Shown: one piece after another, positions 12,175-34,641 of the stretch
Position numbering within the stretch: position 1 is the first letter of the stretch
Layout of the letters: each line of letters starts with the position of its first letter
Assembly: GCA_017431345.1 (NCBI GenBank)
Contig: JAFRLH010000080.1
Location: 1 to 52,075 of the forward strand
Source of the DNA: Lachnospiraceae bacterium
GTDB taxonomy: Bacteria > Bacillota > Clostridia > Lachnospirales > Lachnospiraceae
Length of the DNA stretch: 52,075 bases
Direction of reading: 5' to 3'
Notes under the pieces: generated by a model
Told to the model about the DNA's origin: nothing
Seen by the model: only the letters and a program-made list of their open reading frames with translations
Database searches by the model: none
Position numbers and translations under genes: made by a program

Positions 12175-13041
12175 TCAGGCAGGATCATCCGGGTTCATAT
12201 GTGCTGTAAATGCTTTCACAGCATTGGAAATATATCTTTTTCCGGAAAGAACGATATCAAATTGGCGGACGGCATAAGGGGAATCCAGTCTGAAAAAACG
12301 CATAGGGCTGTCCGGCCTGTTTATCAGCCTGTCAGGCACGAAAGCGGCGCCCATGCCGGCTTCGCAAAGATGGAAGCAGGTAGTAAGCTGGCCGGCCATG
12401 ATACGGATCACAGGGGATATGCCGGCTGCCGCGAATACCGTCATGGCACGGTCGTGCAGGCCGTTCCCGGGCGTAAGGAGGACAAAAGGGAGGTCTGCAA
12501 AGGCTGCCGCGGAGACGGCAGAAAATTCATCCCTGAGATGCCTGCCGGACAGGATATCCTCTCCCGTCATGGCGGCAGACAGAAGAGGTGCCGGTATCGC
12601 AAAAGCTTTCGGTACCGCAAGCAGAATATGATCAGTAAAACAGGGGATCCGGAGGAATGTTTCTTCCGGATCTTTTTCACAGTTGAATGTAAGATCGATC
12701 TCGTGGTCTTCAAGCATGTCGAGAAGGGAATCCGCTCCGGATTCGATCAGCTCCAGATTAAGCCCGGGATATTTTCCCGAAAAGGAAGCCAGGAACGGGG
12801 GCAGGATATGGGAGATAATATAATGGGAGCCGCCGATCTTCAAAGACCCGGTCTTCAGGCCGGAGATGTCATTCAGCTGCATTGCGAGTTCCTCCTCCAG
12901 GGACCGGATCTCCTCATATTTCCGGATATAAGCTTCCCCGGCGGCTGTCAGCGTGAGCGGCCTTGCGGAACGGTCGAACAGAGGCATGCCGATCCGCGAT
13001 TCGACTTTGGAGACCGCTATGCTGAGGGCCGGCTGGGCTGT
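12175..13041 (-). pseudogene. LysR-family transcriptional regulator lacking its N-terminus
   Basis: Read leftward, the frame begins inside the helix-turn-helix with AQPALSIAVSKVESRIG, runs through MPLFDRSARPLTLTAAGE, and then a full LysR substrate-binding domain of about 220 residues. The first 25-30 residues, which hold the start of the DNA-binding domain, are absent because the sequence changes into the 5' part of an esterase gene near 13031-13041. An internal ATG at 12987 could give a 270-residue product without a complete DNA-binding domain, so it is unlikely to work as a repressor or activator. Confidence 0.8.
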
Positions 13042-13702
13042 CGGCCATGCAGAGTGTGACGATTATTATTCCGGATATATGGCAGATCAGATCAAAGGAA
13101 CTGTGATCGATGTGGATTATACAACTTCCTTCTATGCTGATATCCATGTTATGTATGCGCAGACCAGGGATGCCATCGAATATGCAGTGGAAAGCGCAGC
13201 GGCGCTCGGCTGCAGCCCGGAACGGATCGTGATCGGCGGATACAGCGCAGGCGGTCATCTGACGGCAGGAGTGCTGATCAGGATGCTGGAAGAAGGGAAA
13301 TGCCCGTTTGCCGGTGTGATCCTTGCTTATGCCCCGCTCGATCTGCGTCCGAAGGCTTCCCAGGCTCCTGCAACGCCCCGCGATGAAGCCATGCAGCTCA
13401 GAGGCGCGGCGTATGAGGAACTGGTGCTGCGGGGGAACGATGAGATCCGGTATGATCATATCGTAAGCCCGCTGCTTACATCGAAGCAGCTGTTCCAGAA
13501 GCTGCCCAGAATGATGGTCCTTTCCGCCAAGCTCTGCGAATTCAAGGAACAAGATGAAGAATTCGCGAAGACGATCTCCCGGATCGGTGTGGAGACCACA
13601 TCCTGCAGATTCATGCGTTCCGCCCACGGATTTATCCCGCATTTCCGTCAGGAGTGGAAGGAAGCATGCGCAAGGACTGCCAGATTTATAAAGAGCTGCT
13701 GA
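13031..13702 (+). pseudogene. Alpha/beta-hydrolase (HSL/BD-FAE type esterase) lacking its N-terminus
   Basis: The readable protein begins with GWAVGHAECDDYY. In intact relatives this follows the HGG oxyanion-hole motif, which is missing here together with about the first 60-90 residues. The rest is well kept: the nucleophile elbow GGYSAGGHL, the strand GVILAYAPLD, and the likely catalytic His in SAHGFIPHF. The frame is open upstream only because it reads through the antisense of the LysR remnant. A single deletion of a divergent LysR/esterase promoter region explains both truncated ends. Confidence 0.78.
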
Positions 13703-19478: not shown

Positions 19479-20168
19479 ATGAGCAGGATTCTTATTGTTG
19501 AAGACGAAGAAAGCATTGCCGAACTCGAGAAGGATTATCTGGAGCTTTCGGGGTTTGAAGTCGAGATCGCGACGTCCGGAGATACCGGGCTGGAGATGGC
19601 GCTGAAAGGGGATTACGATATTTTCATCCTGGATCTGATGCTGCCGGGCGTGGATGGATTCGAGATCTGCAAGCAGATCAGGAAGGAAAAGGATACGCCG
19701 GTCCTGATGGTCTCTGCCAGGAAGGATGATATTGACAAGATCCGCGGGCTCGGCCTCGGCGCGGATGATTATATCACCAAGCCGTTTTCCCCGAGCGAAC
19801 TGGTCGCCAGGGTGAAGGCGCATCTTTCCCGTTATAAGAGACTTGTCGGGAAAGACGTCCAGAAAAATGAAGTGATCGAGATCCGCGGCCTGAAGATCGA
19901 CCGTACTGCCAGACGCGTGTTCGTGGATGGCGTTGAAAAGAATTTTACGACCAAGGAATTCGATCTCCTGACCTTCCTTGCTTCCAATCCGAACCGCGTG
20001 TTCACGAAAGAAGAACTTTTCTCCAATATCTGGGATATGGAGTCGCTCGGCGATATCGCGACGGTGACTGTGCATATCAAGAAGATCCGGGAGAAGATCG
20101 AGCTGGATACCAGTAAGCCCCAGTATATTGAGACGATCTGGGGTGTGGGCTACCGCTTTAAGATCTAG
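19479..20168 (+). CDS. OmpR/PhoB-family response regulator, no partner kinase nearby
   Basis: The 229-residue protein has a complete receiver: acidic pair in ILIVEDEE, phospho-acceptor Asp in FILDLMLPG, the Ser in LMVSAR and the Lys in YITKPFS. A winged-helix output domain follows (FTTKEFDLLTFLASN and ETIWGVGYRF). It should bind DNA after phosphorylation. No histidine kinase gene is adjacent; instead the RiPP precursor begins 92 bp downstream on the same strand, with no clear promoter or terminator between them. It may therefore control, or be co-transcribed with, the RiPP cluster. AGGAGGAGA gives a strong start. Confidence 0.9.
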   Translation: MSRILIVEDEESIAELEKDYLELSGFEVEIATSGDTGLEMALKGDYDIFILDLMLPGVDGFEICKQIRKEKDTPVLMVSARKDDIDKIRGLGLGADDYITKPFSPSELVARVKAHLSRYKRLVGKDVQKNEVIEIRGLKIDRTARRVFVDGVEKNFTTKEFDLLTFLASNPNRVFTKEELFSNIWDMESLGDIATVTVHIKKIREKIELDTSKPQYIETIWGVGYRFKI

Positions 20169-20260
20169 TAGATTCCTTATTCCGGCACCGGGACCTGACT
20201 CGAAAACACATGAAATCAATATGTAAAAACACGCTGTAAAAGCAGAAAGCGAGGAAAAAC

Positions 20261-20626
20261 ATGGATAAAGAAAGAATGGAAGCGTTGAAGAAGCTCATCA
20301 ACGGGAATGACGAGATCATTGAAAAGATGCTTGGCATCAAACAGGATTCGGAGGAAGGCGGAGAACCGGTCAGAGGGTATGCCGAAAAGGTGCACCTGGT
20401 ACTGCAGGAAGCCGGGATCGACTGTACGGCGGAAGAGATCGAAGAGTTTATCGAGGCGAATTCTGTCATTGAGCTTTCTCCGGATGATCTGGATGATGTG
20501 GGCGGCGGCTGCGACACGCCTGTCTGTCATCCGGTATGCGACCGTGTTTTTGACAGGGAAAAATGCTGCGAAAAGAGCGGGTCCTGTGTGGGCATCTGTG
20601 CGGACGGGTCCAGCTCATGCTACTAA
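20261..20626 (+). CDS. RiPP precursor peptide: Nif11-like leader, eight-cysteine core
   Basis: The 121-residue peptide divides clearly. Residues 1-83 are an acidic, helical leader ending in VIELSPDDLDDVGGG, the Nif11-like pattern (ELS-x2-L-x2-V-GG) at which leaders are usually cut. Residues 84-121 are a core starting CDTPVCHPVC and ending SSSCY, with Cys at core positions 1, 6, 10, 19, 20, 26, 30 and 37. The next three genes are radical SAM/SPASM enzymes, so installation of carbon-linked thioethers or other crosslinks on the core is the expected fate. GCGAGGAAAAAC places the ribosome site well. No second precursor copy is seen. The exact cut site and product class are inference. Confidence 0.85.
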   Translation: MDKERMEALKKLINGNDEIIEKMLGIKQDSEEGGEPVRGYAEKVHLVLQEAGIDCTAEEIEEFIEANSVIELSPDDLDDVGGGCDTPVCHPVCDRVFDREKCCEKSGSCVGICADGSSSCY

Positions 20627-21936
20627 AGTATTCTAGGTTCAACCATCTGGTGCCGATGCCCGAAGGCGGCTTTGCCCTGTACAATTTCAGAACCGGCAGC
20701 TGCCTGAAACTGAACTTCCTGACAAAAGACATCTTTGACCGGGCAGTGACACTTGATCCGGCCAGGCAGGATGTATCGACATTTAAGGCCCTTGGTTTCC
20801 TTGTGGACTTTGATGAGCTGCGCCATTTAAAAAACATGACGCGTCTTGCCGCCGGAAGGACCGATCAGATCGGCGTCTGTCTGTGTCCCACCTTTGACTG
20901 CAATTTTGACTGTCCCTATTGCTTCGAACACAGACGGCCTGGAAAAATGAGCCAAAAGACACAGGACAACTATATGCGGTTTCTCGAGAAAGAGTTCGGG
21001 AAGCTTCATCCGGGGCTTCTTACCGTCACCTGGTTCGGCGGAGAGCCCCTTCTGACGCCGGACGTGATCCGGGATCTGTCGAGCCGCATGATCCGTCTGT
21101 GTAAAGAAAACAATGCGGAGTATTCCGCCAGCATCATCACCAACGGATGGTTCCTGAACCAGAAAACCGCAGAACTTCTGGAGGAAGCGCAGATCTGCAG
21201 TATTCAGGTCACGCTGGACGGCCCGGATGCGGAAATGCATGATAAGACTAGAAAACTCCGGAGCGGAGGAGGGACCTTTGAGCGGATCATGGGGAATCTG
21301 CGCAGCATACGAACCGGGATCCGGATCGAGGTGCGCTGCAATCTGCAGCGTGAGAATGCGGAGTCTTTTGACCGGGTGAAGGACATGGTCCGGGAGATCA
21401 AAGAAGAAACGGGCAATCAGATCTCTGCCTATATCGGTTATCTGGACGGAGAGATCAGCGTGCATGATCCCGCCTACAGCAGAGAGATCGGGATGGACGC
21501 GGAAGAGTATTCGGTATTGTTGAAGAAAAAGGAAAAGCATCCGAAGCTGCTGTACAGAAGGACCCACTGCATCGCCCAGAACGGCGCGGGGATCGCGGTT
21601 GATGAACTCGGCAATCTCTATAAGTGCTGGGAGAATATCGGGCTGCCGGAGGAATCCTTCGGGAATCTGGAGAATTTCGGTTTCCGCCGGGAGCCGGATG
21701 CCCGCATCGAAAACCTGTACAAATATCTCGATACGGCCTGGCCGGAGGATGATCCGGAGTGCATGGAATGTGTGCTGCTTCCATATTGTCTGGGGGGATG
21801 TCCCCATAAGCGCGTCAGGTATGGCGAAAAGAAGTGCAGCTCCTACCGCTATATGCTGGACGAGTATGTCATTAACAGGTGCCGGTATGTCTACAGCGAC
21901 GAGTATAAAGAAAAGAAAAAGCGCAGGCAGCAGTGA
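20617..21936 (+). CDS. Radical SAM/SPASM peptide maturase A, with an N-terminal RRE-like domain
   Basis: The 439-residue enzyme has an N-terminal PqqD/RRE-like segment (about residues 3-72: SRFNHLVPMPEGGFALYNF, later GFLVDFDE) that would bind the leader. The radical SAM core has CNFDCPYC (Cys 95, 99, 102) binding the SAM cluster, a TWFGGEPLL motif, and a C-terminal SPASM region (YKCWENIG, then CMECVLLPYCLGGCP) for auxiliary Fe-S clusters. The start chosen at 20617 lies inside the precursor's last codons: the ATG and the TAA overlap by 10 bases, which suggests translational coupling. It is the likeliest core-modifying enzyme because it alone has an RRE-like domain. Confidence 0.87.
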   Translation: MLLKYSRFNHLVPMPEGGFALYNFRTGSCLKLNFLTKDIFDRAVTLDPARQDVSTFKALGFLVDFDELRHLKNMTRLAAGRTDQIGVCLCPTFDCNFDCPYCFEHRRPGKMSQKTQDNYMRFLEKEFGKLHPGLLTVTWFGGEPLLTPDVIRDLSSRMIRLCKENNAEYSASIITNGWFLNQKTAELLEEAQICSIQVTLDGPDAEMHDKTRKLRSGGGTFERIMGNLRSIRTGIRIEVRCNLQRENAESFDRVKDMVREIKEETGNQISAYIGYLDGEISVHDPAYSREIGMDAEEYSVLLKKKEKHPKLLYRRTHCIAQNGAGIAVDELGNLYKCWENIGLPEESFGNLENFGFRREPDARIENLYKYLDTAWPEDDPECMECVLLPYCLGGCPHKRVRYGEKKCSSYRYMLDEYVINRCRYVYSDEYKEKKKRRQQ

Positions 21937-23110
21937 TCTGCGGGAGCTGTTTTCCTTTCATCCGGACAAAAAGGCGAAACGGGAGCGTCTGATAAAAGAG
22001 GCGCGAAGGCTGTATCGGGCGGGGCGAAACGGAGAGCGTCTGCAGCCGGTCTATGACAGTTATGATGGCCTCCTGGGAAAGTTCTATCTCTATCCCACTT
22101 TCCGATGTCCCCTGCGGTGTCCCTACTGCTATGCGGAAGGCGGAGAGCGGGAGTCGGAAGAGCTTCTCCCGGGGCAGCTGATCAGGATCACAGAAGAGGC
22201 CGTGCATGCCGGATACCGTGCTGTGGTGATCGTGGGCGGAGAACCGCTTGTTTATTCAGGGTTTAAGGCGTACCTGTCCGGACTTGAGGCCATGGATAAG
22301 AGGGGCTGCAGGTTTGTGCTGCGGACGTCCTTCGCGTTTCCGGTAAAAGCGGATCTGATGGCCCGCCTTTGCCATGTGTTTGATGAGATCTGCGTAAGCC
22401 TTGACGGGAACGAGAAAACAAATGACGTAAATCGCGGGAAAGGTTCTTTTACGAAAACCCTCGCAAATATCGACCTTGCCCTTGAGCTTGGCGGGCAGAT
22501 CAGCGTCAGCGCGGTGCTTTCGGAGGAAGATGCAAAGGCGGAGCCGGGAGATGATCTGATTGCCGTCTGCAGGGAGCGGGGGATCAAAAAACTGGTCATG
22601 AACAACGCCATTCCCATGGGCAGGGCGAAAAGATCCGGCTGTTCCGCTTATTATGAGTGGCGCGCCGACCGTGCATCGAAGATGCCGGACCGGATCGAAC
22701 CGTCCTTTTCCTGCGGACTCGGAAGAAGCCTTTACATGCAGCCGGACGGGAAAGTGTATCCCTGTTACGCCTGGTGTGAAGACCATCACCTGCTGGGGGA
22801 TCTGTCCAGAGAATCTTTAGGCGACATCCTCGCCCGGAAGGAACTGCTGGGCATACTTAACACCGGTGTTGATACCAATCAAAAATGCTGCCGCTGCGAT
22901 GTGCGCTATTTCTGCGGCGGAAAGTGCAAGATCTGGGTAGGGGACAGAACAGACATCAACAGCGGTGATTTTGACTGCGGGAAGACCAGGGAAGGAATCC
23001 TTCGGATGCTGCAGGCGTACGGCGTGATTCCTGAGAATGGAGAAGACAAGTCGAACATCGAAAAAAAAGATCCGGAGGAACCGTGTACTACAGACTCTGT
23101 GAACATATAG
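21887..23110 (+). CDS. Radical SAM/SPASM peptide maturase B
   Basis: The start at 21887 follows AGGTG and overlaps maturase A by 50 bases in another frame; it gives 407 residues. CPLRCPYC (Cys 74, 78, 81) is the radical SAM motif, VVIVGGEPLVYSG the GGEP motif, and the C-terminal half has SPASM-type cysteines (SCGLGRSLY, PCYAWC, CCRCDVRYFCGGKCK). It lacks the RRE-like front of maturase A and has a short basic helix instead. An in-frame start further upstream at 21599 would lie deep inside maturase A and is not believable. The enzyme is clearly different in sequence from A and C, so the three are not recent duplicates. Confidence 0.83.
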   Translation: MSTATSIKKRKSAGSSDLRELFSFHPDKKAKRERLIKEARRLYRAGRNGERLQPVYDSYDGLLGKFYLYPTFRCPLRCPYCYAEGGERESEELLPGQLIRITEEAVHAGYRAVVIVGGEPLVYSGFKAYLSGLEAMDKRGCRFVLRTSFAFPVKADLMARLCHVFDEICVSLDGNEKTNDVNRGKGSFTKTLANIDLALELGGQISVSAVLSEEDAKAEPGDDLIAVCRERGIKKLVMNNAIPMGRAKRSGCSAYYEWRADRASKMPDRIEPSFSCGLGRSLYMQPDGKVYPCYAWCEDHHLLGDLSRESLGDILARKELLGILNTGVDTNQKCCRCDVRYFCGGKCKIWVGDRTDINSGDFDCGKTREGILRMLQAYGVIPENGEDKSNIEKKDPEEPCTTDSVNI

Positions 23111-24576
23111 GGCTGCGCTCGTGGAAACGGGCGCCCTATGCCTGTTACGTGAAAAAAGAAGCCTTTGCGAAGAGGCTTTCAAAAGATGACTATGAGCTGC
23201 TCTGTCTTTGTGACGGGGCGCATGATCTTCCGGGGAGCGATCGTCTGAAAAGACTGGAAGAAGAGGGATTCGTCGTACCGTGTCGGAAAGGGGATCTGCC
23301 GGATGAATGGTCCTTGCCCCGCAGGTATGACAACCGGTATTTTCCAAAGATGAATCTGATGATCACCGGGAAGTGCAATTATAACTGCCGGCACTGTTTC
23401 AACGCCGCAGACAATGCCCCGCTGATGGCGGAGTGGGCTTTTGAGCCGCTCCTCGGGCTCCTTGATCAGGCACGGGATTGCGGCATACACGCCTTCACGA
23501 TCACCGGCGGCGAACCGATGCTGCATCCGCGGTTCATGGACATTCTCGGGGAAATCATCAGACGGGACATGTTTGTGGAGGAACTGAATACCAACGGGTT
23601 CTTTATTACAGCAGACGTTCTTTCACAGATGAAGTCAATGGGATGCCGTCCGCTGATGAAGATCTCCTTTGACGGCATCGGCTGCCATGACTGGATGCGT
23701 GCGGCAAAGGGGACAGAAGAACGCACATTGTCCGCCATAAGGCGCTGCGTTCAAAATAGATTTCCGGTCATGGTTCAGATGCAGGTCAATAAAAAAAACC
23801 TGGAGTCACTGCTGCCGTCTTTGGATATGCTGGAGCAGGAGGGCGTCCGGAGCGTGCGTTTGATACGCACCACGGAGTCGGGACGATGGAGATTGAACCA
23901 TGGTGACGAGATTCTTTCTTTCCCGGAATATTATGAGCAAATGCTTGCCCTTGCCGAAAGATATTGTAAAAACGAGCACCGTATGGATATCGATATCTGG
24001 CAGTTTCTCCATGTATATCCCGCGGAAAGGAGCTTTTCCATCGGCCCGGTGCAGCAGAGCGGCGGCATGTATCGCGGCAGCGCGCCTGTGTGCAGGGGGA
24101 ACCGCGGCATGGTTGCCGTTACCGCGGAGGGAGACCTGGTTCCCTGCCTTCAGTTAAGCGGGTATTACAAGTTATATGGACTTAAGCTTGGAAATCTGCA
24201 TGACACAGCGCTGAAGGACCTGCTTACGGAAAGCAGCTATCTTGATACCGTGTGCGCCACGGTCGATCAGCTGAAAAACGGGAATGCGGAATGTGCATCC
24301 TGCGAACATTTCCGGTACTGCTGCGGCGGATGCAGGGCGATCGGGATCATGCTTTCCGGTGTGAAGTATGACAAATTCGGCACGGACAGATCGAAGTGCC
24401 GGTTCTTTAAGGACGGATGGTATGAGAAAACAACCCTGGCCCTGCGGGGCTGGAAGAATCTTACTGCTGTCCATTGCGGCAAAGCGGCTGATCAGGGAGA
24501 AAACGGATGGAATGATCTCACAGCCGGTCATCACCGTACTGCTGGAGGAGTGCGCGGATTTTATTGCTGTTTTTGA
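23083..24576 (+). CDS. Radical SAM/SPASM peptide maturase C
   Basis: The start is a GTG at 23083 with a strong GGAGGAA just upstream, inside the end of maturase B (28-base overlap). The product has 497 residues. Its front segment (YYRLCEHIGLRSWKRAPYA) is typical of a radical SAM family common in Lachnospiraceae. CNYNCRHC (Cys 98, 102, 105) is the SAM-cluster motif, TITGGEPMLHP the GGEP motif, and the SPASM region runs from VCRGNRGM through CASCEHFRYCCGGCRA. The family-like sequence ends near GWYEKTTLALRGW; the last 35 or so residues look non-conserved and may be a run-on tail. Confidence 0.87.
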   Translation: MYYRLCEHIGLRSWKRAPYACYVKKEAFAKRLSKDDYELLCLCDGAHDLPGSDRLKRLEEEGFVVPCRKGDLPDEWSLPRRYDNRYFPKMNLMITGKCNYNCRHCFNAADNAPLMAEWAFEPLLGLLDQARDCGIHAFTITGGEPMLHPRFMDILGEIIRRDMFVEELNTNGFFITADVLSQMKSMGCRPLMKISFDGIGCHDWMRAAKGTEERTLSAIRRCVQNRFPVMVQMQVNKKNLESLLPSLDMLEQEGVRSVRLIRTTESGRWRLNHGDEILSFPEYYEQMLALAERYCKNEHRMDIDIWQFLHVYPAERSFSIGPVQQSGGMYRGSAPVCRGNRGMVAVTAEGDLVPCLQLSGYYKLYGLKLGNLHDTALKDLLTESSYLDTVCATVDQLKNGNAECASCEHFRYCCGGCRAIGIMLSGVKYDKFGTDRSKCRFFKDGWYEKTTLALRGWKNLTAVHCGKAADQGENGWNDLTAGHHRTAGGVRGFYCCF

Positions 24577-24621
24577 AGCTGACGCTGACCGGCAGGTCAT
24601 AACGATAGAAGGAGGATCAGG

Positions 24622-25197
24622 ATGGGATTTTTATCAAAATTCGGAGGGTTTCACGGTGCGGGTGAAGGCCCGAATGATATCAGCACGGAGAAGTACGGCA
24701 TGCCGGCCTATTCCCTCTATACGGAGCTGGACCCCGGTGACATGCACCAGAAGATATCCGTAAAGGACGAGCAGGGAAAGACGCTGTACTGGACAAAGTC
24801 TTCCGTCATTGCCATCAAGGGAAAGACAGAGATGTTTGATGCCGGCGGTACTCTGGTAGCAAAGCTGGAGAAAAAACCGATCAGCTTTCATGAGGAGCAC
24901 TATATCACCATGGATGACGGGCAGAAGATCACGCTCTCCAATGAGCTCTTCCATGTTTTTAAGGATATCACGAACATTAAAGGGCTGGGGTGGAAGCTGA
25001 AAGGCAATGTGATAGGTCTGAATTTTACGCTTTTTGATGAGAACAGCGAGCCGATTGCCGTGATCGGGCAGAAGATGATCTCCCTGCATGACCGCTACAG
25101 CATCGACCTTTATCAGCCGCAGCACGAAAAAGCTGTGGCGGCGATCGTGATTCAGCTTCAGAAGATGCTCACAGCCCGCCGGGAGAATAAGGAATAA
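24622..25197 (+). CDS. LURP-one-related (YxjI/Tubby-like barrel) protein in the RiPP operon
   Basis: The 191-residue protein is beta-rich with the alternating pattern of LURP-one-related proteins, for example GKTLYWTKSSVIAIKGKTE, LNFTLFDENSEPIAVIGQ and the C-terminal helix HEKAVAAIVIQLQKML. This family forms a closed barrel around a hydrophobic helix, and its bacterial members are largely unassigned. GAAGGAGGA gives a strong start, 45 bp after maturase C on the same strand. A RiPP cluster is an unusual place for it; a binding, chaperone or immunity-like role is possible but not shown. Confidence 0.72.
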   Translation: MGFLSKFGGFHGAGEGPNDISTEKYGMPAYSLYTELDPGDMHQKISVKDEQGKTLYWTKSSVIAIKGKTEMFDAGGTLVAKLEKKPISFHEEHYITMDDGQKITLSNELFHVFKDITNIKGLGWKLKGNVIGLNFTLFDENSEPIAVIGQKMISLHDRYSIDLYQPQHEKAVAAIVIQLQKMLTARRENKE

Positions 25198-25219
25198 GGA
25201 GCTGCTTCCTTATCAGCCC

Positions 25220-25261
25220 GCTGAAAAAGGTACAGAAAACATCAGAAACCGCCTTTTTAGC
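25220..25261 (+). terminator. Weak terminator-like stem after the RiPP cluster
   Basis: GCTGAAAAAGG (25220-25230) can pair with CCTTTTTAGC (25252-25261) around a 21-base loop. It is the only candidate end for the RiPP transcript. The A/T-rich stem makes it uncertain. Confidence 0.35.
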
Positions 25262-25325
25262 ATATTGTCATTCACTTTATAAAACGGGCATGATCGGGCA
25301 TGATAACTGCGGCCAACGGCAGGAA

Positions 25326-25823
25326 ATGAACTACGAGCATATTATTCACCCCATACCTCCTTTTTATGAGCAGGGTTCCCGGATCCTGATCCTGGGAAGT
25401 TTTCCGTCCGTAAAGACCAGGGAAAGCGGCTTCTTTTACGGACATCCGCAGAACCGATTCTGGAAACTGATGGCGGCGCTGTTCGAAGAGGAGACGATTC
25501 CGGCCTCGAAAGAAGAAAAGAGGGCTTTTGCCGCCCGCCATCACATCGCGCTGTGGGATTCCATCCACTCCTGTGATATCGTGGGTTCCAGTGACAGCTC
25601 GATCAGGAATGTCAAGCCCAATGATATCCGGATGATCCTGGAAGAAGCGGATATCCGTATGATCGTGACGAACGGTAAGAAATCCCATGAGATCTACCGG
25701 AAATACTGCATGACTCTGACAGGACGGGAGGATGTCTGCCTGCCGTCTACATCGCCTGCCAACGCGGCCTGGACGATGGAGAAGCTGGCACAGGCCTGGA
25801 GAGTGATCCTGGAAACGACATAA
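25326..25823 (+). CDS. Uracil-DNA-glycosylase-fold DNA-deoxyinosine glycosylase
   Basis: The protein has 165 residues and the uracil-DNA glycosylase superfamily fold: ILILGSFPSVKTRESG followed by GHPQNRFWKLM at the front, and the LPSTSPANA motif near the end. These match the family annotated as DNA-deoxyinosine glycosylases, which remove deaminated bases. The ATG at 25326 with GGCAGGAA upstream fits the family start (HIIHPIPPFY); an in-frame ATG at 25290 adds an unrelated stretch. It forms a single-gene unit ending at a terminator shared with the convergent MATE gene. Confidence 0.85.
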   Translation: MNYEHIIHPIPPFYEQGSRILILGSFPSVKTRESGFFYGHPQNRFWKLMAALFEEETIPASKEEKRAFAARHHIALWDSIHSCDIVGSSDSSIRNVKPNDIRMILEEADIRMIVTNGKKSHEIYRKYCMTLTGREDVCLPSTSPANAAWTMEKLAQAWRVILETT

Positions 25824-27219: not shown

Positions 27220-27423
27220 GGCTGTATTCCTTATTCGTTCGGTTAATTGGTGATTCCCGTCCGGAATTTCTACAGTATAGCGAATACAGATCGAAAACAC
27301 AATACCGTAAAGTTGCATTTTCAGAAAGAATGTGGTATATAAAGTGCTGATAAAGGCGGGACCCGGACGGGTTCCTTCATTTTGGTTATAAAGAACGATT
27401 TTTTTACTGAGGAGGCGGTATTC

Positions 27424-28581
27424 ATGACAAAGATAGATGTTATTTCAGGATTTCTGGGAGCCGGAAAGACCACGCTCATCAGCAAGCTTTTAAAGGAAGC
27501 GCTGACAGGCGAGCAGGTCGTGCTGATCGAGAATGAATTCGGGGAGATCGGAATCGACGGCGGTTTCTTAAAGGAAGCCGGCGTTGAGATCAAGGAAATG
27601 AATTCAGGCTGCATCTGCTGCACGCTGGTCGGAGATTTTGAGGCTTCGCTGAAGGAAGTCCTTTCCAAATATCATCCGGACAGGATCATCATCGAGCCTT
27701 CAGGCGTAGGCAAACTTTCGGATGTGATCGTTGCGGTAAACAATGCCGTGGCAGGAACAGACGCAGTCCTGGGAAGCCCTGTGACTGTAGTGGACGCCAT
27801 GAAGTGCAAGATGTATATGAAGAATTTCGGCGAGTTTTTCAACAATCAGATCGAGACAGCCAAGGCTGTTATCCTGAGCCGTACCGGAAAGTGTTCTGAG
27901 GCTAAACTGGCGGAAGCTGTCGCGCTGATCAGAAGCCTGAATGAAAATGCGGATCTGATCACGACGGACTGGGAGAAGATCTCCGGCGCGCAGATCCTGG
28001 AGACGATGGAAAATGCCGAGAAATTCGAAGAGGCGGCTCTTCGCGAGCTCCTGGAAGAGCACCTGAAGGAAGCGGAAGAGCATGAACACGAGCATCACCA
28101 TCACCATCATGGCCATGATCATGACGAGGATGAACATGAGCACCATCATCACCACCATGATGACGATGATGACGACGAGCATGAGCACCATCATCACCAC
28201 CATGATGACGATGATGACGACGAGCATGAGCACCATCACCATCATCACGAACACGGAGAGCATCATCATCACCATCACCACGGTCATCACCATGCCGACG
28301 ATGTCTTCACCAGCTGGGGATTTGAGACGACCCGTTCCTTCACGAAGGAGGAGATCAGCGATATCCTTGCAAAACTCGGTGACGGAGAAACGTTCGGTAC
28401 AGTGCTTCGTGCCAAGGGTATGGTCCCGCAGACCGGCAGCGACAGATGGATCCATTTTGATATGGTTCCCGAAGAGACCGAAGTCAGGGACGGCGCACCG
28501 GATGTTACCGGTAAGCTGTGCGTGATCGGCGCGGATATTCATACTGACAAACTTGCAGAAGTATTCGGAAAGAAAGCCTGA
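27424..28581 (+). CDS. CobW/P47K-family GTPase metallochaperone with a His/Asp-rich tract
   Basis: The 385-residue protein has the COG0523 plan: Walker A GFLGAGKTT at the front, the metal-binding CxCC motif in GCICCTL, and a C-terminal CobW_C domain. Between the G domain and the C-terminal domain, residues of about 220-292 form a metal-binding stretch of HHHHHH and DDDDDD runs in a repeated pattern. Such proteins deliver zinc, cobalt or iron to client enzymes under GTP control, and the tract would store or sense metal. GAGGAGG supports the ATG at 27424. It is followed by a second, different CobW-type gene. Proximity to hydrogenase genes suggests, but does not prove, a metal-supply link. Confidence 0.87.
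   Translation: MTKIDVISGFLGAGKTTLISKLLKEALTGEQVVLIENEFGEIGIDGGFLKEAGVEIKEMNSGCICCTLVGDFEASLKEVLSKYHPDRIIIEPSGVGKLSDVIVAVNNAVAGTDAVLGSPVTVVDAMKCKMYMKNFGEFFNNQIETAKAVILSRTGKCSEAKLAEAVALIRSLNENADLITTDWEKISGAQILETMENAEKFEEAALRELLEEHLKEAEEHEHEHHHHHHGHDHDEDEHEHHHHHHDDDDDDEHEHHHHHHDDDDDDEHEHHHHHHEHGEHHHHHHHGHHHADDVFTSWGFETTRSFTKEEISDILAKLGDGETFGTVLRAKGMVPQTGSDRWIHFDMVPEETEVRDGAPDVTGKLCVIGADIHTDKLAEVFGKKA
28138..28227 (+). repeat. Perfect 45-bp tandem duplication in the CobW gene
   Basis: Bases 28138-28182 and 28183-28227 are identical 45-bp units, each encoding 15 residues (E, six H, six D, E, H). A third, partial and diverged unit follows from 28228. Length is a multiple of three, so copy-number change would keep the frame. 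Confidence 0.9.
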
Positions 28582-29827: not shown

Positions 29828-29941
29828 CTGTCATGGCCGGCAGAAGGTACGCTTTGCGGGATTATTTGAGGAAGATGTTTTGAACTGCCGGTCTGCAGGT
29901 GTTCCTGCGGAAGGGCAGAGTATCGCGGCAGGGGAAAGGAT

Positions 29942-30193
29942 ATGGAAAACAGAGTTGCGGTCATCAGTGTGATCGTCGGAAAAGAAGGAAATACGGAAAC
30001 GCTCAACAGTCTTCTGCACGATTACGGGCAGTATATCGTCGGACGTATGGGCATCCCGTACAGAAAACGGAACATCAATATCATCAGTGTTGTCATAGAC
30101 GCGCCGCAGAACGAGATCGCGACCCTTTCGGGCAAGATCGGGAATCTGCCGGGCGTCAATGTGAAGACGGCCTATTCCAATGTGCAGGACTGA
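29942..30193 (+). CDS. TM1266-family iron-only hydrogenase system regulator (ACT-like)
   Basis: The 83-residue protein matches the small ACT-domain-like family named for its regular place in [FeFe]-hydrogenase gene sets: NRVAVISVIVGKEGNTETLN, IVGRMGIPYRKRNINIISVV and LSGKIGNLPGVNVKT. Its mechanism is not established; small-molecule sensing is suggested by the ACT fold. GGGGAAAGG precedes the ATG. It is followed by hydE, hydG and hydF on the same strand, confirming the context. Confidence 0.87.
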   Translation: MENRVAVISVIVGKEGNTETLNSLLHDYGQYIVGRMGIPYRKRNINIISVVIDAPQNEIATLSGKIGNLPGVNVKTAYSNVQD

Positions 30194-30342
30194 GACGGGA
30201 TGGACATTCGTATGTGCAGGTCCTGCGGCGGGACCGCCGCGCCGTCGAACGAACGGGGGTGAATGCGATCGGAATAAAAGAAGATAACAGAATCGCCGGA
30301 GTGGCTCCCGCTTCTGCGGAAATCGTGCAAAGAGATGAAAAC

Positions 30343-31413
30343 ATGGCCGGCGCAGCAGATTCTGCTGCCGCTGCTGTAGAAAAACTGATCCGGACGCACA
30401 GCCTTTCGGTGCCGGAATATGCAGCGCTGATCGAAGGACGGACTCCGGAGATCGCAGAACGCCTGAAAGAGGAAGCCGTAAAGCTGCGGAAGGAAATCTA
30501 CGGGAATGCGGTCTTCACCCGCGGTCTGATCGAGATCAGCAACATCTGCAGGAACGACTGCCTGTACTGCGGCATCCGGCGCAGCAACCGGAATTGCGAC
30601 AGATACCGGCTGACCCGGGACGAGATCCTTTCCTGCGCAGAAGAAGGATACGGACTTGGCTTCCGAACCTTTGTAATGCAGGGAGGAGAGGATCCGTATT
30701 TCACCGACGAAATACTGTGCGGGATCGTGTCAGAGATCAAGAGAAGACATCCGGACTGCGCAGTGACCCTGTCTATGGGAGAACGGAGCCGGGAGAGCTA
30801 TGAACGCATGCATGCTGCGGGAGCGGACAGATACCTGCTCCGGCATGAGACAGCCGATCCCGAGCATTACGGGAAACTGCATCCGAAAGAAATGTCTTAT
30901 GAGAACAGGATGAACTGTCTGCGGCAGCTCAGGGAGACGGGATATCAGGTGGGCTGCGGTATGATGGTCGGCTCACCGTATCAGACAGTCAGGAATCTGG
31001 CGCAGGATCTGAAATTCATAGAAGAATTCAAGCCTGACATGTGCGGAATCGGCCCTTTCATCCCTCACAAGGATACACCGTTCGCCGAGGAATCTGCCGG
31101 AACATTTGAACTGACATGCTTCCTGCTTTCCGTGATCAGGCTCATCCATCCGCCGGTCCTGCTTCCCGCGACCACTGCGCTTGGGACGATCCATCCGCTC
31201 GGCAGGGAACTGGGAATCCAGTCAGGGGCAAATGTAGTGATGCCGAACCTGTCGCCGGTGGCTGTCAGAAAGAAGTATGAACTGTATGACAACAAGATCT
31301 GTACGGGTGATGAATCCGCCCAGTGCAGAAGCTGTCTGAACCTCAGGATGGAGTCGATCGGTTACGAACTGGTCACCGACCGCGGAGACGTCCGGAGAGC
31401 GGCGTTATCCTGA
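30343..31413 (+). CDS. hydE: [FeFe]-hydrogenase maturation radical SAM protein HydE
   Basis: The 356-residue protein carries the radical SAM motif CRNDCLYC in ISNICRNDCLYCGIRRSN, a GFRTFVMQGGEDPYF stretch, and the PFIPHKDTPF loop of HydE. HydE works with HydG and HydF to make the diiron subcluster of the H-cluster. Start choice: the ATG at 30343 fits the family N-terminus (VEKLIRTHSLS); in-frame starts upstream at 29899 and 30259 add unrelated residues. It also retains a C-terminal Cys trio (ICTGD, QCRSC). Confidence 0.9.
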   Translation: MAGAADSAAAAVEKLIRTHSLSVPEYAALIEGRTPEIAERLKEEAVKLRKEIYGNAVFTRGLIEISNICRNDCLYCGIRRSNRNCDRYRLTRDEILSCAEEGYGLGFRTFVMQGGEDPYFTDEILCGIVSEIKRRHPDCAVTLSMGERSRESYERMHAAGADRYLLRHETADPEHYGKLHPKEMSYENRMNCLRQLRETGYQVGCGMMVGSPYQTVRNLAQDLKFIEEFKPDMCGIGPFIPHKDTPFAEESAGTFELTCFLLSVIRLIHPPVLLPATTALGTIHPLGRELGIQSGANVVMPNLSPVAVRKKYELYDNKICTGDESAQCRSCLNLRMESIGYELVTDRGDVRRAALS

Positions 31414-31827
31414 TGGAAACCGAAGATGCGTTTGACGGATATTTAAAGTGCCTGTTCATATAGCAAGGCGATTTGAAAAAAATACATCCTGCAACTTGCC
31501 CTGAAACGGGCAGCAGCAATGATTCAGATGGATCTTTGTTCAAACAGGAAGAAGATCTGCGATTTATACATCCCCGCTGTATCCGGGAAGAACTTCTTGT
31601 AAAGCGTTTGAGGGTGTAAAAATTCCGAACAAGATCCATATATGAACAAAAGAAGGAATATGCTTTCAAAAGCATGACGGCAGAACAAAAACAGGGGTGT
31701 GCAAATTTTTTGAAAGCCGCATTTCTGAACAATCAGGAAACAAGAACACAATATAACACTATAATAAATATATCCTTTTTCACCTGGGCAGATCGCCGGG
31801 GAGAACGGACATCAGAAAGGAAAAACA
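31414..31827. other. 414-bp gap between hydE and hydG
   Basis: No believable gene was found; frames on both strands are short or A+T-rich. Two -10-like boxes, TATAAC at 31752-31757 and TATAAT at 31760-31765, lie ahead of hydG but lack a matching -35 box. A small GCCC-TGAAAC-GGGC hairpin sits near 31498-31511. hydG may have its own promoter here. Confidence 0.5.
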
Positions 31828-33276
31828 ATGTACAAATACGATCCCAAATCTCTCATCGCCGATGAATTCATCAATGATGAGGAAATCAAAGCGACACTGG
31901 CTTATGCCGAGGCAAACAAGAACAATTTCGAACTGATCGATGCGATTCTGGAGAAAGCCCGTCCCGGCAATCTGCAGGCTGCCGAGCACGGAACCGCGCT
32001 GACACACAGGGAGGCATCCGTCCTGCTCGCCTGCGAGGATCCGGAGCGTGTCCAGAGAATGTTTGAGATCGCAGGGGAGATCAAGCAGGCTTATTACGGG
32101 AACCGTATCGTTCTCTTTGCGCCGCTCTATCTGTCCAACTACTGCGTGAACGGATGTCTCTACTGTCCTTACCATGCGAAGAACAAGACGATCCCGAGGA
32201 AGAAACTGACCCAGGAAGAGATCAAAGCCGAAGTCATCGCGCTGCAGGATATGGGCCACAAGAGGCTTGCGATCGAAGCCGGCGAGGATCCGGTCAACAA
32301 TCCGATCGAGTATATTCTCGACTGTATTAAAACGATCTACAGCGTTCATCATAAGAACGGCGATATCAGGCGTGTAAATGTCAATATCGCTGCGACAACT
32401 GTAGAAAATTACAGGAAGCTGAAAGAAGCCGGCATCGGGACCTATATCCTTTTCCAGGAGACGTATCATAAGAAGAGCTACGAGCATCTGCATCCGACCG
32501 GACCGAAGCACAATTACAATTATCATACGGAAGCCATGGACCGCGCCATGGACGGCGGTATCGACGATGTCGGTCTCGGCGTGCTGTTCGGGCTGGAACT
32601 GTACAAGTATGAATTCGCGGGACTGATCATGCATGCAGAACATCTTGAAGCAGTGCATGGCGTCGGACCGCACACCATCAGTGTTCCCCGTGTAAAGAAA
32701 GCCGACGATATTGATCCCAACGAATTCGACGGCGGCATCGATGATGAGACCTTTGAAAAGATCATCGCCTGCATCCGTCTGGCCGTTCCTTATACCGGCA
32801 TGATCATCTCCACCAGAGAAGGCCAGGCGGTCAGGGAAAAAGCGCTGAAGATGGGCATTTCCCAGATCAGCGGCGCTTCCAGGACATCGGTAGGCGGGTA
32901 CACCGAGGAGGAGCGCCCGACCGATACCGAGCAGTTCGATGTCAGCGACCAGAGAACGCTGGATGAAGTCATCCGATGGCTGATGGAAAATGACCATGTG
33001 CCGTCATTCTGCACGGCCTGTTACAGAGAAGGCCGTACCGGAGACCGTTTCATGAGCCTCTGTAAGAGCGGGCAGATCCTTAACTGCTGCCATCCGAACG
33101 CACTGATGACACTGGCTGAGTTCCTGGTGGACTATGCGTCGCCCGAGACAAAGGAAATCGGCTGGGAACTGATCAAAAAGGAGCTGGAGAAGATCCCGAA
33201 GGAAAAGGTAAGACAGATCTGCGCGCAGCATATTGAGGAGATCCGGACTTCCAACAGCAGGGATTTCAGATTCTGA
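31828..33276 (+). CDS. hydG: [FeFe]-hydrogenase maturation radical SAM protein HydG
   Basis: The 482-residue protein is of normal HydG length. The SAM-cluster motif CVNGCLYC sits near residue 107 in LYLSNYCVNGCLYCPYHA, and the C-terminal second-cluster motif is CTACYREGRTGDRFMSLC, continuing with a further Cys pair in LNCC. HydG cleaves tyrosine to give CO and cyanide bound to iron for the H-cluster. CAGAAAGGAAAA precedes the ATG. It lies 414 bp after hydE, so it may be transcribed partly from its own promoter. Confidence 0.95.
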   Translation: MYKYDPKSLIADEFINDEEIKATLAYAEANKNNFELIDAILEKARPGNLQAAEHGTALTHREASVLLACEDPERVQRMFEIAGEIKQAYYGNRIVLFAPLYLSNYCVNGCLYCPYHAKNKTIPRKKLTQEEIKAEVIALQDMGHKRLAIEAGEDPVNNPIEYILDCIKTIYSVHHKNGDIRRVNVNIAATTVENYRKLKEAGIGTYILFQETYHKKSYEHLHPTGPKHNYNYHTEAMDRAMDGGIDDVGLGVLFGLELYKYEFAGLIMHAEHLEAVHGVGPHTISVPRVKKADDIDPNEFDGGIDDETFEKIIACIRLAVPYTGMIISTREGQAVREKALKMGISQISGASRTSVGGYTEEERPTDTEQFDVSDQRTLDEVIRWLMENDHVPSFCTACYREGRTGDRFMSLCKSGQILNCCHPNALMTLAEFLVDYASPETKEIGWELIKKELEKIPKEKVRQICAQHIEEIRTSNSRDFRF

Positions 33277-33304
33277 TAAAAAGGTGTCCGCTGAAGGGGG
33301 AGGG

Positions 33305-33396
33305 AGAGAATGCCTTCCCCTTCAGGGGCGTGAGCCGCGGCAGCGGCAGGAGAGAATGCCTCCCCCTTTTGGGGAGGGTGCCGCAGCAGCGGCAGG
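33305..33396 (+). repeat. Tandem REP-like element, two 46-bp copies between hydG and hydF
   Basis: Two 46-bp units (33305-33350 and 33351-33396) both start AGAGAATGCC and end CGGCAGCGGCAGG or CAGCAGCGGCAGG. Their middles are palindromic: CCCCTTCAGGGG in the first and CCTCCCCCTTTTGGGGAGG in the second. This resembles the dispersed palindromic elements often seen between genes in gut Clostridia. A third start (AGAG) follows and supplies the hydF ribosome site AGGAGAGG. Confidence 0.75.
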
Positions 33397-33405
33397 AGAG
33401 GTACT

Positions 33406-34641
33406 ATGAGCCTTAACAACACACCAGCATCCGAACGCCTTCATATAGGCTTCTTCGGCCTCATGAACGTCGGCAAATCCAGCCTGATCAATGCGGTCAC
33501 CGCGCAGCAGCTCTCGCTCGTCTCGGATATTCCGGGAACAACGACCGACCCGGTCCACAAGACCATGGAGCTTCTGCCGCTCGGTCCGGTCGTGATCATC
33601 GACACGGCCGGCATCGACGACACCGGAAAGCTCGGTGAAATGAGAGCGGAGCGCGCCAGAAAAGTGCTGGAGCAGACGGATATCGCGGTGCTCGTGACGG
33701 AAGCCGGAAGAGAACTGCAGCCGTCTGAAAAGGAACTGATCAGTCTTTTCAATGAGAAAAACATCAGCTATATCATCGCTTATAACAAGGACGATCCGGA
33801 AGGCAGACAGATAACAGAGGCCGGTCAGACGGACAGCTTCACGCCGGATGCGGAACACGGCATCTGCGTCAGCGCGCTGACAGGCAAGAATATCAATGCG
33901 CTGAAAGAGAAACTGGGAGAATTTTCGAAAAAATGGGAAGAAAAGAAACATGTGATCGTAACAGACCTTCTTGCACCGTATGATATGACGATCCTGGTGA
34001 TCCCGATCGATGAGTCCGCGCCGAAGGGCAGGCTTATTCTCCCGCAGCAGCAGGTGATGAGAGAACTGCTGGACGCGCACATGAGCTTTATCGCATGCCA
34101 GCCGGAAGAGATCCCGCAGGTGCTTGCAGACCTGCAGAAAAAGCCGGCCCTGGTCATTACTGATTCCCAGGCGTTCGGCAAAGTTTCAAAACTGGTGCCG
34201 GAAGAGATCACACTGACGTCGTTTTCGATCCTTTTCGCCCGTTATAAGGGATCGCTGAAAACGCTTGTGGCAGGTGCAGCGGAGCTTTCAAAGCTCGCAG
34301 ACGGGGATAAAGTGCTGATCTCCGAGGGCTGTACTCATCACAGGCAGTGCAATGATATCGGAACGGTAAAGATGCCGGGCTGGATCGAAGGGTTCGCCGG
34401 CGTGAAGCCGGAGTTCGGATTCACCTCCGGGCACGGATTCCCGGATGATCTGAAAGAATACAAGCTGATCGTGCACTGCGGCGGCTGTATGCTTAACGAG
34501 CAGGAAATGAAGAGCCGGATGAAGGCCGCGAAGGCAGCCGGCGTACCGATGGTCAATTACGGGATCGCGATCGCGCATATGCACGGGATCCTGAAAAGAA
34601 GCCTGGAGCCGTTTCCGGATGTGCTGGAAATGATCGGGTAG
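33406..34641 (+). CDS. hydF: [FeFe]-hydrogenase maturation GTPase HydF
   Basis: The 411-residue protein has a G domain with Walker A GLMNVGKSS, the switch segment DIPGTTTDPV and the DTAG motif. The C-terminal cluster-binding domain carries EGCTHHRQCND followed by HCGGCM, matching the HydF CxH...HCxxC pattern. HydF is the scaffold that carries the diiron subcluster to HydA. Its ribosome site AGGAGAGG comes from the edge of the repeat upstream. The gene ends at a strong terminator. Confidence 0.93.
   Translation: MSLNNTPASERLHIGFFGLMNVGKSSLINAVTAQQLSLVSDIPGTTTDPVHKTMELLPLGPVVIIDTAGIDDTGKLGEMRAERARKVLEQTDIAVLVTEAGRELQPSEKELISLFNEKNISYIIAYNKDDPEGRQITEAGQTDSFTPDAEHGICVSALTGKNINALKEKLGEFSKKWEEKKHVIVTDLLAPYDMTILVIPIDESAPKGRLILPQQQVMRELLDAHMSFIACQPEEIPQVLADLQKKPALVITDSQAFGKVSKLVPEEITLTSFSILFARYKGSLKTLVAGAAELSKLADGDKVLISEGCTHHRQCNDIGTVKMPGWIEGFAGVKPEFGFTSGHGFPDDLKEYKLIVHCGGCMLNEQEMKSRMKAAKAAGVPMVNYGIAIAHMHGILKRSLEPFPDVLEMIG

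Follow-up and report, generated by a model that had tools for sequence, protein, structure and literature searches.

The 52,075 nucleotides analysed here (the window; positions 1-52,075 of contig JAFRLH010000080.1, C91, in the assembly GCA_017431345.1 of a Lachnospiraceae bacterium, G000) contain a radical SAM RiPP cassette which we read, with reasonable though not full confidence, as a mosaic of the Nif11/NHLM mix-and-match type that was probably acquired horizontally and is served by an exporter in trans. A precursor-rSAM1-rSAM2 module as found in Coriobacteriaceae MAGs would here have been combined with a third enzyme whose family is separate and often NHLM-linked. According to the open reading frame coordinates, the precursor, rSAM1, rSAM2, rSAM3 and a LURP-one-related (LOR) gene follow one another on the plus strand:

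20261..20626, plus strand: precursor peptide, 121 aa, with a Nif11-like leader of ~83 aa ending in GGG and a 38-aa core
20617..21936, plus strand: rSAM1, radical SAM/SPASM enzyme, 439 aa, Pfam Radical_SAM above cut-off
21887..23110, plus strand: rSAM2, 407 aa, a radical SAM/SPASM enzyme with both Pfam domains (Radical_SAM, SPASM) scoring above cut-off
23083..24576, plus strand: rSAM3, starting at GTG, likewise a radical SAM/SPASM enzyme with both Pfam domains scoring above cut-off
24522..24576, plus strand: probable gene remnant of 55 bp inside the 3' end of rSAM3, 85% identity to a lipoprotein-like gene
24622..25197, plus strand: LOR protein, 191 aa, PF04525 above cut-off
20167..25325, no strand: segment missing from two same-genus genomes, where homology breaks off and resumes (L041, L042)

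This is the content that the first-pass annotation had described, a single eight-Cys precursor, three radical SAM/SPASM genes that differ from each other and whose reading frames overlap, and then LOR, and the coordinates agree. rSAM1 overlaps the precursor gene by 10 nt, rSAM2 overlaps rSAM1 by 50 nt and rSAM3 overlaps rSAM2 by 28 nt, the last of which suggests coupled expression. All three enzymes carry a CX3CX2C motif and a SPASM-type CX2CX5CX3C motif, share 22-26% pairwise identity over the aligned stretches and reach the curated cut-off of no named maturase family among the best 25 NCBIfam matches for each; the reading as a RiPP-type cassette, in which a Nif11-like leader goes with three enzymes unlike one another, is supported. 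Side by side, rSAM1, rSAM2 and rSAM3 occur in no other genome examined. Promoter-like sites (5 against 3.7 expected) include none just 5' of the precursor on the plus strand, and terminator-like sites (10 against 5.2 expected) include none directly 3' of LOR.

The C-terminal part of the precursor runs ...LDDVGGG up to the leader/core border and continues as CDTPVCHPVCDRVFDREKCCEKSGSCVGICADGSSSCY. A double-glycine motif (VGGG) is followed by a short Cys-rich core, whose 38 residues include eight cysteines (binomial chance 1.4e-6 at a background Cys frequency of 2.2%, taken from 12 other ORFs of the window). The leader of this Nif11-like precursor matches TIGR03798 (E 1.7e-4), but the score of that match, 21.7 bits, is under the curated cut-off of 32.3. 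Precursors near relatives of rSAM3 are also under this cut-off (29.8 bits in L055; 22.8 and 18.3 bits in L057). Neither a Clo7bot nor a SCIFF peptide model matched the window precursor in the NCBIfam search.

Precursor, rSAM1 and rSAM2 recur with their order kept in two Coriobacteriaceae MAGs (L010, CACXDP010000138.1 from genome G702; L011, CADBYM010000050.1), in both of which rSAM1 and rSAM2 overlap by 14 nt. These cassettes resemble that of the window in precursor-enzyme order, in enzyme identity (43-55% overall, 43-46% for rSAM1 and 54-55% for rSAM2) and in the leader, whose alignment score is attained by 0 of 2000 shuffles; the precursor as such matches that of L011 with a BLASTP E of 1e-9. 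In contrast to the window, the L010 and L011 cores have four cysteines each instead of eight, neither rSAM3 nor LOR lies beside rSAM1-rSAM2 in either of the two close loci, and L010 possesses an adjacent NHLM-type exporter. The L010 and L011 precursors have no TIGR03798 match at E 0.05. A conserved Cys pattern was considered and rejected: MAFFT put four core cysteines of L010/L011 in register with cysteines of the window precursor, whereas pairwise alignment did so for three, with a score no better than that of shuffled cores (reached for the two cores by 292 and 152 of 2000 shuffles in local and by 841 and 674 of 2000 in global alignment). The expectation that homologous precursors share the Cys pattern was therefore not borne out, and since the core is not demonstrably conserved, identical target residues for rSAM1 and rSAM2 cannot be shown. 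L010 also encodes another Nif11-like precursor (12783-13058) with a zinc-binding-type core; by our own reading, the L055 precursor looks zinc-binding-type too.

Among the NCBIfam matches listed, Clo7bot, TIGR04463 and CefB maturases are the named families nearest to rSAM1. Although Clo7bot-, PapB- and SCIFF-type maturases are among its nearest named relatives, rSAM1 lies far below their cut-offs, with 215.6 bits against 600 for the Clo7bot maturase TIGR04334, 125.3 of 340 bits for PapB and a likewise distant match to the SCIFF maturase model; for contrast, L062 reaches 775 bits for Clo7bot and has a TIGR04333 peptide nearby. The SPASM model TIGR04085 is matched by rSAM1 with 48.7 bits (cut-off 27), and its best PDB sequence match is 5wgg, which we take to be CteB. 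For rSAM2, the best NCBIfam match is StsB, distant at 95 of 625 bits, and the other family and class genomes searched hold no match. An AlphaFold2 model of rSAM1 from a three-row alignment is of low confidence (mean pLDDT 48.3). When the N-terminal parts of rSAM1 and rSAM3 were checked for a PqqD-like RRE domain, Pfam gave no PqqD hit up to an E of 1; the rSAM1 model is too poor to bear on this point.

rSAM3 belongs to a family separate from that of rSAM1 and rSAM2 and has distant similarity to SkfB. Relatives with 39-47% identity are present in G261, G581, G639 and G702, the last being the genome of L010, where the relative (47%) is encoded on a different contig from the cassette. NHLM exporter genes lie beside rSAM3 relatives at four of the nine loci read, with ABC1 under its cut-off at two (827 and 775 of 853) and present as a fragment only at one. 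Such relatives directly precede NHLM-type genes at G261:C7, G261:C2 and G702:C179, and in G581 the relative follows a Nif11-like precursor. Furthermore, a Nif11-like cluster with NHLM ABC1 (G540:C11) combines two rSAM3-like enzymes (30% and 27%) with a distant rSAM1-like one (25%). At three further loci with rSAM3 relatives (L056, L079, L080), no clear RiPP neighbour was seen. The enzymes are also found separately: rSAM1-rSAM2 lack an adjacent rSAM3 in L010 and L011, and rSAM3 relatives occur in four genomes with no rSAM1 or rSAM2 match at the thresholds used. The two closest rSAM3 relatives stop near residue 465 and a third (L055) is ~15 residues longer; the last ~30 residues of rSAM3 look like read-through into the gene remnant at its 3' end.

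This remnant (24522-24576) shares 85% identity with the 3' portion of a gene, lipoprotein-like, at a second LOR locus of the host (G000:C16) and probably marks the 3' edge of the cassette. The term lipoprotein-like is our own reading of the G000:C16 gene, which has no Pfam match. The LOR protein of the window matches PF04525 with 30.4 bits (cut-off 24.5) and has a host paralogue of 82% identity at G000:C16:60697-61266. No match to rSAM1-3 or the precursor was found at the five other LOR loci compared (L040, L082, L083, L088, L089), three of which are stretches of 3.4-3.6 kb; weaker LOR places (G011:C66, G703:C4) were left out. LOR proteins of ~40% identity exist elsewhere in both Coriobacteriaceae genomes that hold rSAM1 and rSAM2, and the L010 and L011 stretches themselves have no LOR match. 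On grounds of linkage LOR was rejected as a cassette component, despite its presence elsewhere in these two genomes. It is more probably a passenger or neighbour, since the remnant separates it from rSAM3 and none of the five other loci read links it to the enzymes; its inclusion in the combination first described is not supported.

Homology to same-genus relatives breaks off after position 20166 and is picked up again at position 25326 in L041 and 25323 in L042. Between the flanks these relatives have 1129 and 1148 bp with one unrelated gene of ~1.1 kb in place of the segment; of all stretches compared, L041 and L042 alone have this gene. Flanks adjoining one another were seen in two genomes only, so that any view of the ancestral state depends on these two nearest relatives; in G302 and G305, response regulator and glycosylase matches are on one contig, ~9.5-9.7 kb apart and on opposite strands. 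With a G+C content of 50-54%, the cassette genes are like the host and unlike L010/L011 (60-61%). No repeat pair of at least 14 nt is present at the two segment edges, plasmids gave no match to rSAM2 or rSAM3, and viral contigs gave no confirmed match. The replacement at this site is in line with a probable horizontal acquisition of the cassette.

That neither an exporter nor a leader peptidase is encoded in the window, as noted at first pass, is consistent with the profile search of the host genome, in which the only C39 match is on contig C17 and none is on C91. On C17, the host has two NHLM components above cut-off, ABC1 with C39 peptidase (923.3 against 853.3 bits) and ABC2 (725.4 bits, cut-off 709.4), together with an HlyD-like gene (partial match, 28.3 of 156.2 bits). 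In L010, genes for an NHLM HlyD-like protein, ABC1 with C39 (923 bits, cut-off 853) and ABC2 (682 bits, cut-off 709) are located directly upstream of the precursor. The ABC1 proteins of host and L010 are 54% identical, and both HlyD-like proteins are short, partial matches. The host exporter may fill the exporter and leader peptidase gap of the cassette in trans.

In the scheme that we favour, translation of the precursor would be coupled to that of the enzymes, at least one of which would hold its long leader. rSAM1 and rSAM2 would work jointly, perhaps in a complex, and introduce thioether bonds within the peptide from its Cys residues in the manner of ranthipeptides or sactipeptides, and rSAM3 would put a further radical modification on the same core. 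For sactipeptide links (Cys sulfur to alpha-carbon) the sequence signs are the distant similarities of rSAM2 to StsB and of rSAM3 to SkfB, and for ranthipeptide links (Cys sulfur to a non-alpha carbon) those of rSAM1 to PapB, the SCIFF maturase model and 5wgg. The C39 domain of the host NHLM exporter would then cut the leader at the glycine motif and secrete a crosslinked peptide of ~38 residues that would probably serve as a bacteriocin or as a signal. As a tentative extension, which we consider possible but less likely than not, the three radical SAM/SPASM lineages, a two-enzyme module and an exporter-linked third enzyme, may follow a fixed sequence in equipping the 38-residue eight-Cys core with radical crosslinks of at least two kinds.

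Most characterised radical SAM peptides have one or two maturases. The sactipeptides thuricin CD (TrnC/TrnD; PMC12093266) and ruminococcin C (RumMC1/RumMC2; PMC8188230) are described as products of two enzymes working together, a precedent for the proposed rSAM1-rSAM2 pair, compared with three in the window. It is conceivable, though rather doubtful in our view, that the cassette represents a distinct RiPP class, in which three enzymes act in sequence on one core and introduce two or more linkages into a multiply crosslinked eight-Cys peptide, with a contribution of LOR, for example to immunity or carriage. In its favour are the single precursor followed by three overlapping genes for enzymes unlike one another, the lack of a named maturase family at cut-off among the NCBIfam matches listed, the 47% rSAM3 relative on another contig of the L010 genome and the ~40% LOR proteins in both Coriobacteriaceae genomes. 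The open-access literature searched yielded no paper on three radical SAM enzymes with RiPP and SPASM, none on LURP-one together with radical SAM, and for 'three rSAM' only an unrelated passage (PMC11118758). Against a distinct class, all five other LOR loci read lack a link to the enzymes, rSAM3 is not adjacent to the rSAM1/2 pair elsewhere, and earlier papers already describe precursors of the Nif11/NHLP kind whose maturases are interchangeable and which can have several radical SAM genes close by (PMC2887384, PMC3023750, PMC4289311). The earlier proposal of a new class is not upheld, given homologous precursors without the eight-Cys pattern and enzymes that are found apart, two outcomes that the first-pass annotation had itself named as refuting it, and such multi-enzyme loci in print. 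The cassette shares with Nif11/NHLP-NHLM systems (TIGR03798, TIGR03793, TIGR03794/6/7; PMC2887384, PMC3023750) a double-glycine leader, a variable Cys-rich core, the use of a dedicated ABC exporter with C39 peptidase, here predicted in trans, and maturases of the interchangeable kind, radical SAM enzymes among them. It departs from them in a leader below the TIGR03798 cut-off, an exporter on a separate contig of the host, and one precursor combined with three radical SAM/SPASM enzymes nearest to three different families.

rSAM3 could serve some other precursor in trans. An unlikely version of this has rSAM1 and rSAM2 mature the window precursor while rSAM3, a recent arrival, acts on other exported host precursors, for example on contig C68, where further double-glycine precursors are encoded; it accords with the absence of rSAM3 beside rSAM1/2 in L010 and L011 and with the continuation of its frame into the remnant, but not with the 28-nt overlap with rSAM2 and the intact radical SAM and SPASM motifs of rSAM3. 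Even less probable is that rSAM1 and rSAM2 build a redox or metal-binding peptide and not a secreted antimicrobial or signal: the Cys-rich core and the zinc-binding-type cores noted above for L010 and, by our own reading, L055 would fit, whereas secretion is indicated by the GGG motif and by the NHLM-type export genes, with C39 peptidase, that adjoin the L010 cassette. Finally, the host assembly is a draft of 94 contigs with 5.14% contamination, and rSAM2 has no match in the other family and class genomes searched, but stitching of the cassette into the contig from another organism is very improbable, as it lies inside one contig, both flanks match the same locus in two relatives and its G+C content agrees with the host.

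What is new here looks like a patchwork that brings three radical SAM enzymes together within a peptide system whose type is known, the Nif11/NHLM mix-and-match scheme being established. rSAM2 and the family of rSAM3 represent two maturase families beyond the NCBIfam models at cut-off, among the matches listed. Should a single short precursor indeed be shared by three unrelated radical SAM enzymes, a small co-expression system would allow tests of the order in which they act, of the division of the cysteines among them and of their interdependence, and the two-enzyme, four-Cys cassettes, set against that of the window, offer a natural experiment on the contribution of the third enzyme. The arrangement also suggests how a radical SAM cassette without its own exporter may depend on an exporter elsewhere in the genome.

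The first-pass annotation had described a Nif11-like, cysteine-rich precursor, three distinct radical SAM/SPASM enzymes in overlapping reading frames and a LURP-one-related protein, and all five genes are found where it had placed them:

20261-20626: precursor with a Nif11-like leader, a GGG motif and a 38-residue core containing eight cysteines
20617-21936: rSAM1, with a CX3CX2C radical SAM motif and a SPASM-type CX2CX5CX3C motif
21887-23110: rSAM2, with the same two motifs
23083-24576: rSAM3, likewise with both motifs
24622-25197: LOR, a LURP-one-related gene

Neighbouring frames indeed overlap throughout the precursor and the three enzymes (here termed the cassette), and the enzymes are distinct, each carrying both motifs and sharing 22-26% pairwise identity over aligned stretches. 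The eight-cysteine core is likewise borne out (chance enrichment P = 1.4e-6). The leader resembles Nif11 and carries the GGG motif, but its score lies under the curated cut-off. Among the best 25 NCBIfam matches shown for each enzyme, the top match differs: Clo7bot maturase for rSAM1 (215.6 bits, cut-off 600), StsB for rSAM2 (95, cut-off 625) and ScmF/ScmE for rSAM3 (94, cut-off 400). In a PDB sequence search, 5wgg, which we take to be the SCIFF maturase CteB, is the top match of both rSAM1 and rSAM2, and SkfB that of rSAM3. Relatives of rSAM1 in seven class genomes besides its own (E 1e-50) score 186-253 bits versus 800 for itself; judged by sequence they are distant, and one of them is a Clo7bot locus (L062).

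A two-enzyme version of the cassette occurs in Coriobacteriaceae. When an 84,980-species collection was scanned once with rSAM2, four loci came up: L010 (55% identity) and L011 (54%) are close, L012 (33%) and L013 (22%) distant. The close loci stem from MAGs titled uncultured Coriobacteriaceae, whose RUG isolate names presumably denote rumen genomes. The gene order is partly found elsewhere: precursor, rSAM1 (43-46% identical) and rSAM2 follow one another as in the window, but neither rSAM3 nor LOR was found adjoining the rSAM1-rSAM2 pair in L010 or L011. Their leaders are homologous to that of the window (0 of 2000 shuffles reach the score; BLASTP E 1e-9 for the window and L011 precursors). 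Conservation of core cysteines across homologous precursors is not upheld, since the core shared by L010 and L011 has four cysteines versus eight in the window and alignment scores fall within the shuffle range. Within the family (299 genomes, E 1e-30) and the class (391 genomes, E 1e-40) rSAM2 was detected solely in the window's own genome.

Among 11 genomes of the genus, own included, the flanks of the cassette segment adjoin each other in two (G301:C38 and G308:C157). Homology with G301:C38 stops at window position 20166, the end of a response regulator, and restarts at 25326, where a DNA glycosylase gene begins; with G308:C157 it restarts at 25323. The site measures 1129 and 1148 bp in these relatives and holds a single gene for a secreted-looking protein without a Pfam match, our reading of which is an SGNH hydrolase. 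This replaced gene was not found in the compared stretches of other relatives, and in G302 and G305 the flank genes are on opposite strands, separated by about 9.5-9.7 kb. On sequence grounds, the cassette segment is an insertion or replacement. Because the G+C content of the cassette genes is like that of the host, a donor is not identifiable from composition.

LOR is a probable passenger. A paralogue on host contig C16 is 82% identical to it, and a 55-bp stretch shortly before LOR in the window (24522-24576) shares 85% identity with the end of a lipoprotein-like gene at the C16 locus. As the two closest rSAM3 relatives terminate near rSAM3 residue 465, shortly before this stretch, the 3' edge of the cassette probably lies near 24,480-24,520; a third relative extends about 15 residues further. 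LOR was matched in 2 of 41 relatives (E 1e-10) and in 3 of 391 class genomes (E 1e-15), each count including its own genome. They also occur somewhere in both Coriobacteriaceae genomes, a weak point against the passenger reading. Membership of the LURP-one gene in the cassette is not supported by the five other LOR loci read (three of them short; G011:C66 and G703:C4 (weaker) lie outside this count), where searches for rSAM1-3 and the precursor gave no match.

rSAM3 forms a module of its own. Counting the window's own genome, 5 of the 391 class genomes match it (E 1e-30), and the L010 and L011 genomes have further relatives. Genomic context was read for nine relatives, those forming the rows of alignment A4; for four of them, genes of the NHLM export type are adjacent or belong to the same cluster:

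G261:C2: NHLM ABC1, 912 bits (cut-off 853)
G261:C7: NHLM ABC1, 827 bits (cut-off 853)
G540:C11: NHLM ABC1, 775 bits (cut-off 853)
G702:C179: NHLM ABC1 fragment

One of the nine, in G581, has a Nif11-like precursor (29.8 bits) immediately upstream, and three (G639, G703:C10, G703:C2) have no clear RiPP neighbour. The closest relative, at 47% identity, stands directly after a LANC-like gene on G702:C438, a contig of 3.6 kb from the L010 genome; that genome thus has relatives of all three enzymes, not side by side. The pairing with the LANC-like gene (L069, 168-3031) is possibly a lanthipeptide and radical SAM hybrid. The G540 cluster contains two Nif11-like precursors, a YcaO protein, a B12-binding radical SAM protein, NHLM ABC1, a diphthamide-synthase-like protein, a distant rSAM1-like enzyme (25%) and two rSAM3-like enzymes (30% and 27%), so that the window is not alone in having a cluster with at least three radical SAM genes. 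This heavily equipped RiPP cluster forms one run (L057, G540:C11, 5602-17103) with three radical SAM peptide-maturase-like genes, and one precursor core reads ACCGNACAQC. Near the ABC1 fragment on G702:C179 lie three rSAM3-like genes (L078, 4144-16556), which look intact because the counted stops sit at open-frame ends. Nif11-like leaders fused to a CxxC...CxxC core are encoded in L010 (12783-13058, minus strand) and at the G581 locus L055 (9794-10072, minus strand); the L010 product matches an insertion-element zinc-binding model slightly under cut-off.

Immediately upstream of the L010 precursor stand an NHLM HlyD-like gene, ABC1, which has the C39 peptidase and scores 923 bits (over its cut-off of 853), and ABC2, which at 682 falls short of 709. 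The same set is present on host contig C17, with ABC1 (923) and ABC2 (725) both above cut-off; the ABC1 proteins of L010 and C17 share 54% identity, and the C17 set holds the sole C39 match of the host genome. The C17 exporter may act on the cassette precursor in trans. According to passages of the work of Haft and co-workers, such precursors can sit far from modification and export genes, and modification clusters of several kinds accompany a single exporter type (PMC2887384, PMC3023750). Further double-glycine precursors lie on host contig C68, in a run of about four small genes with double-glycine-like leaders (L081/L059) and no radical SAM match on the contig.

Elsewhere in the window, 27382-28581 encodes what we read as a CobW-like protein with long His/Asp repeat blocks; its same-genus copy in L041 has 451 aa versus 399 aa, and the number of repeats is therefore variable. 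Two further radical SAM genes and a GTPase-like gene (29899-34641) look like HydE/HydG/HydF hydrogenase maturases in our reading and are unrelated to the cassette.

In the working proposed here, precursor and enzymes would be translationally coupled, the rSAM1-rSAM2 pair, together in all three genomes in which it was found, would make thioether crosslinks, rSAM3 would add a further radical modification, and the NHLM exporter would cleave at the glycine motif and secrete the peptide. Passages of one article report two radical SAM genes per precursor in C. difficile 630 and note several such genes near NHLP/Nif11 precursors in anaerobes (PMC4289311). The claim of a new class with LURP-one does not stand on the evidence obtained. 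The cassette is real and well bounded, its gene combination was found nowhere else in the searches made here and its parts are of known kind; three enzymes with one precursor still merit a bench test.
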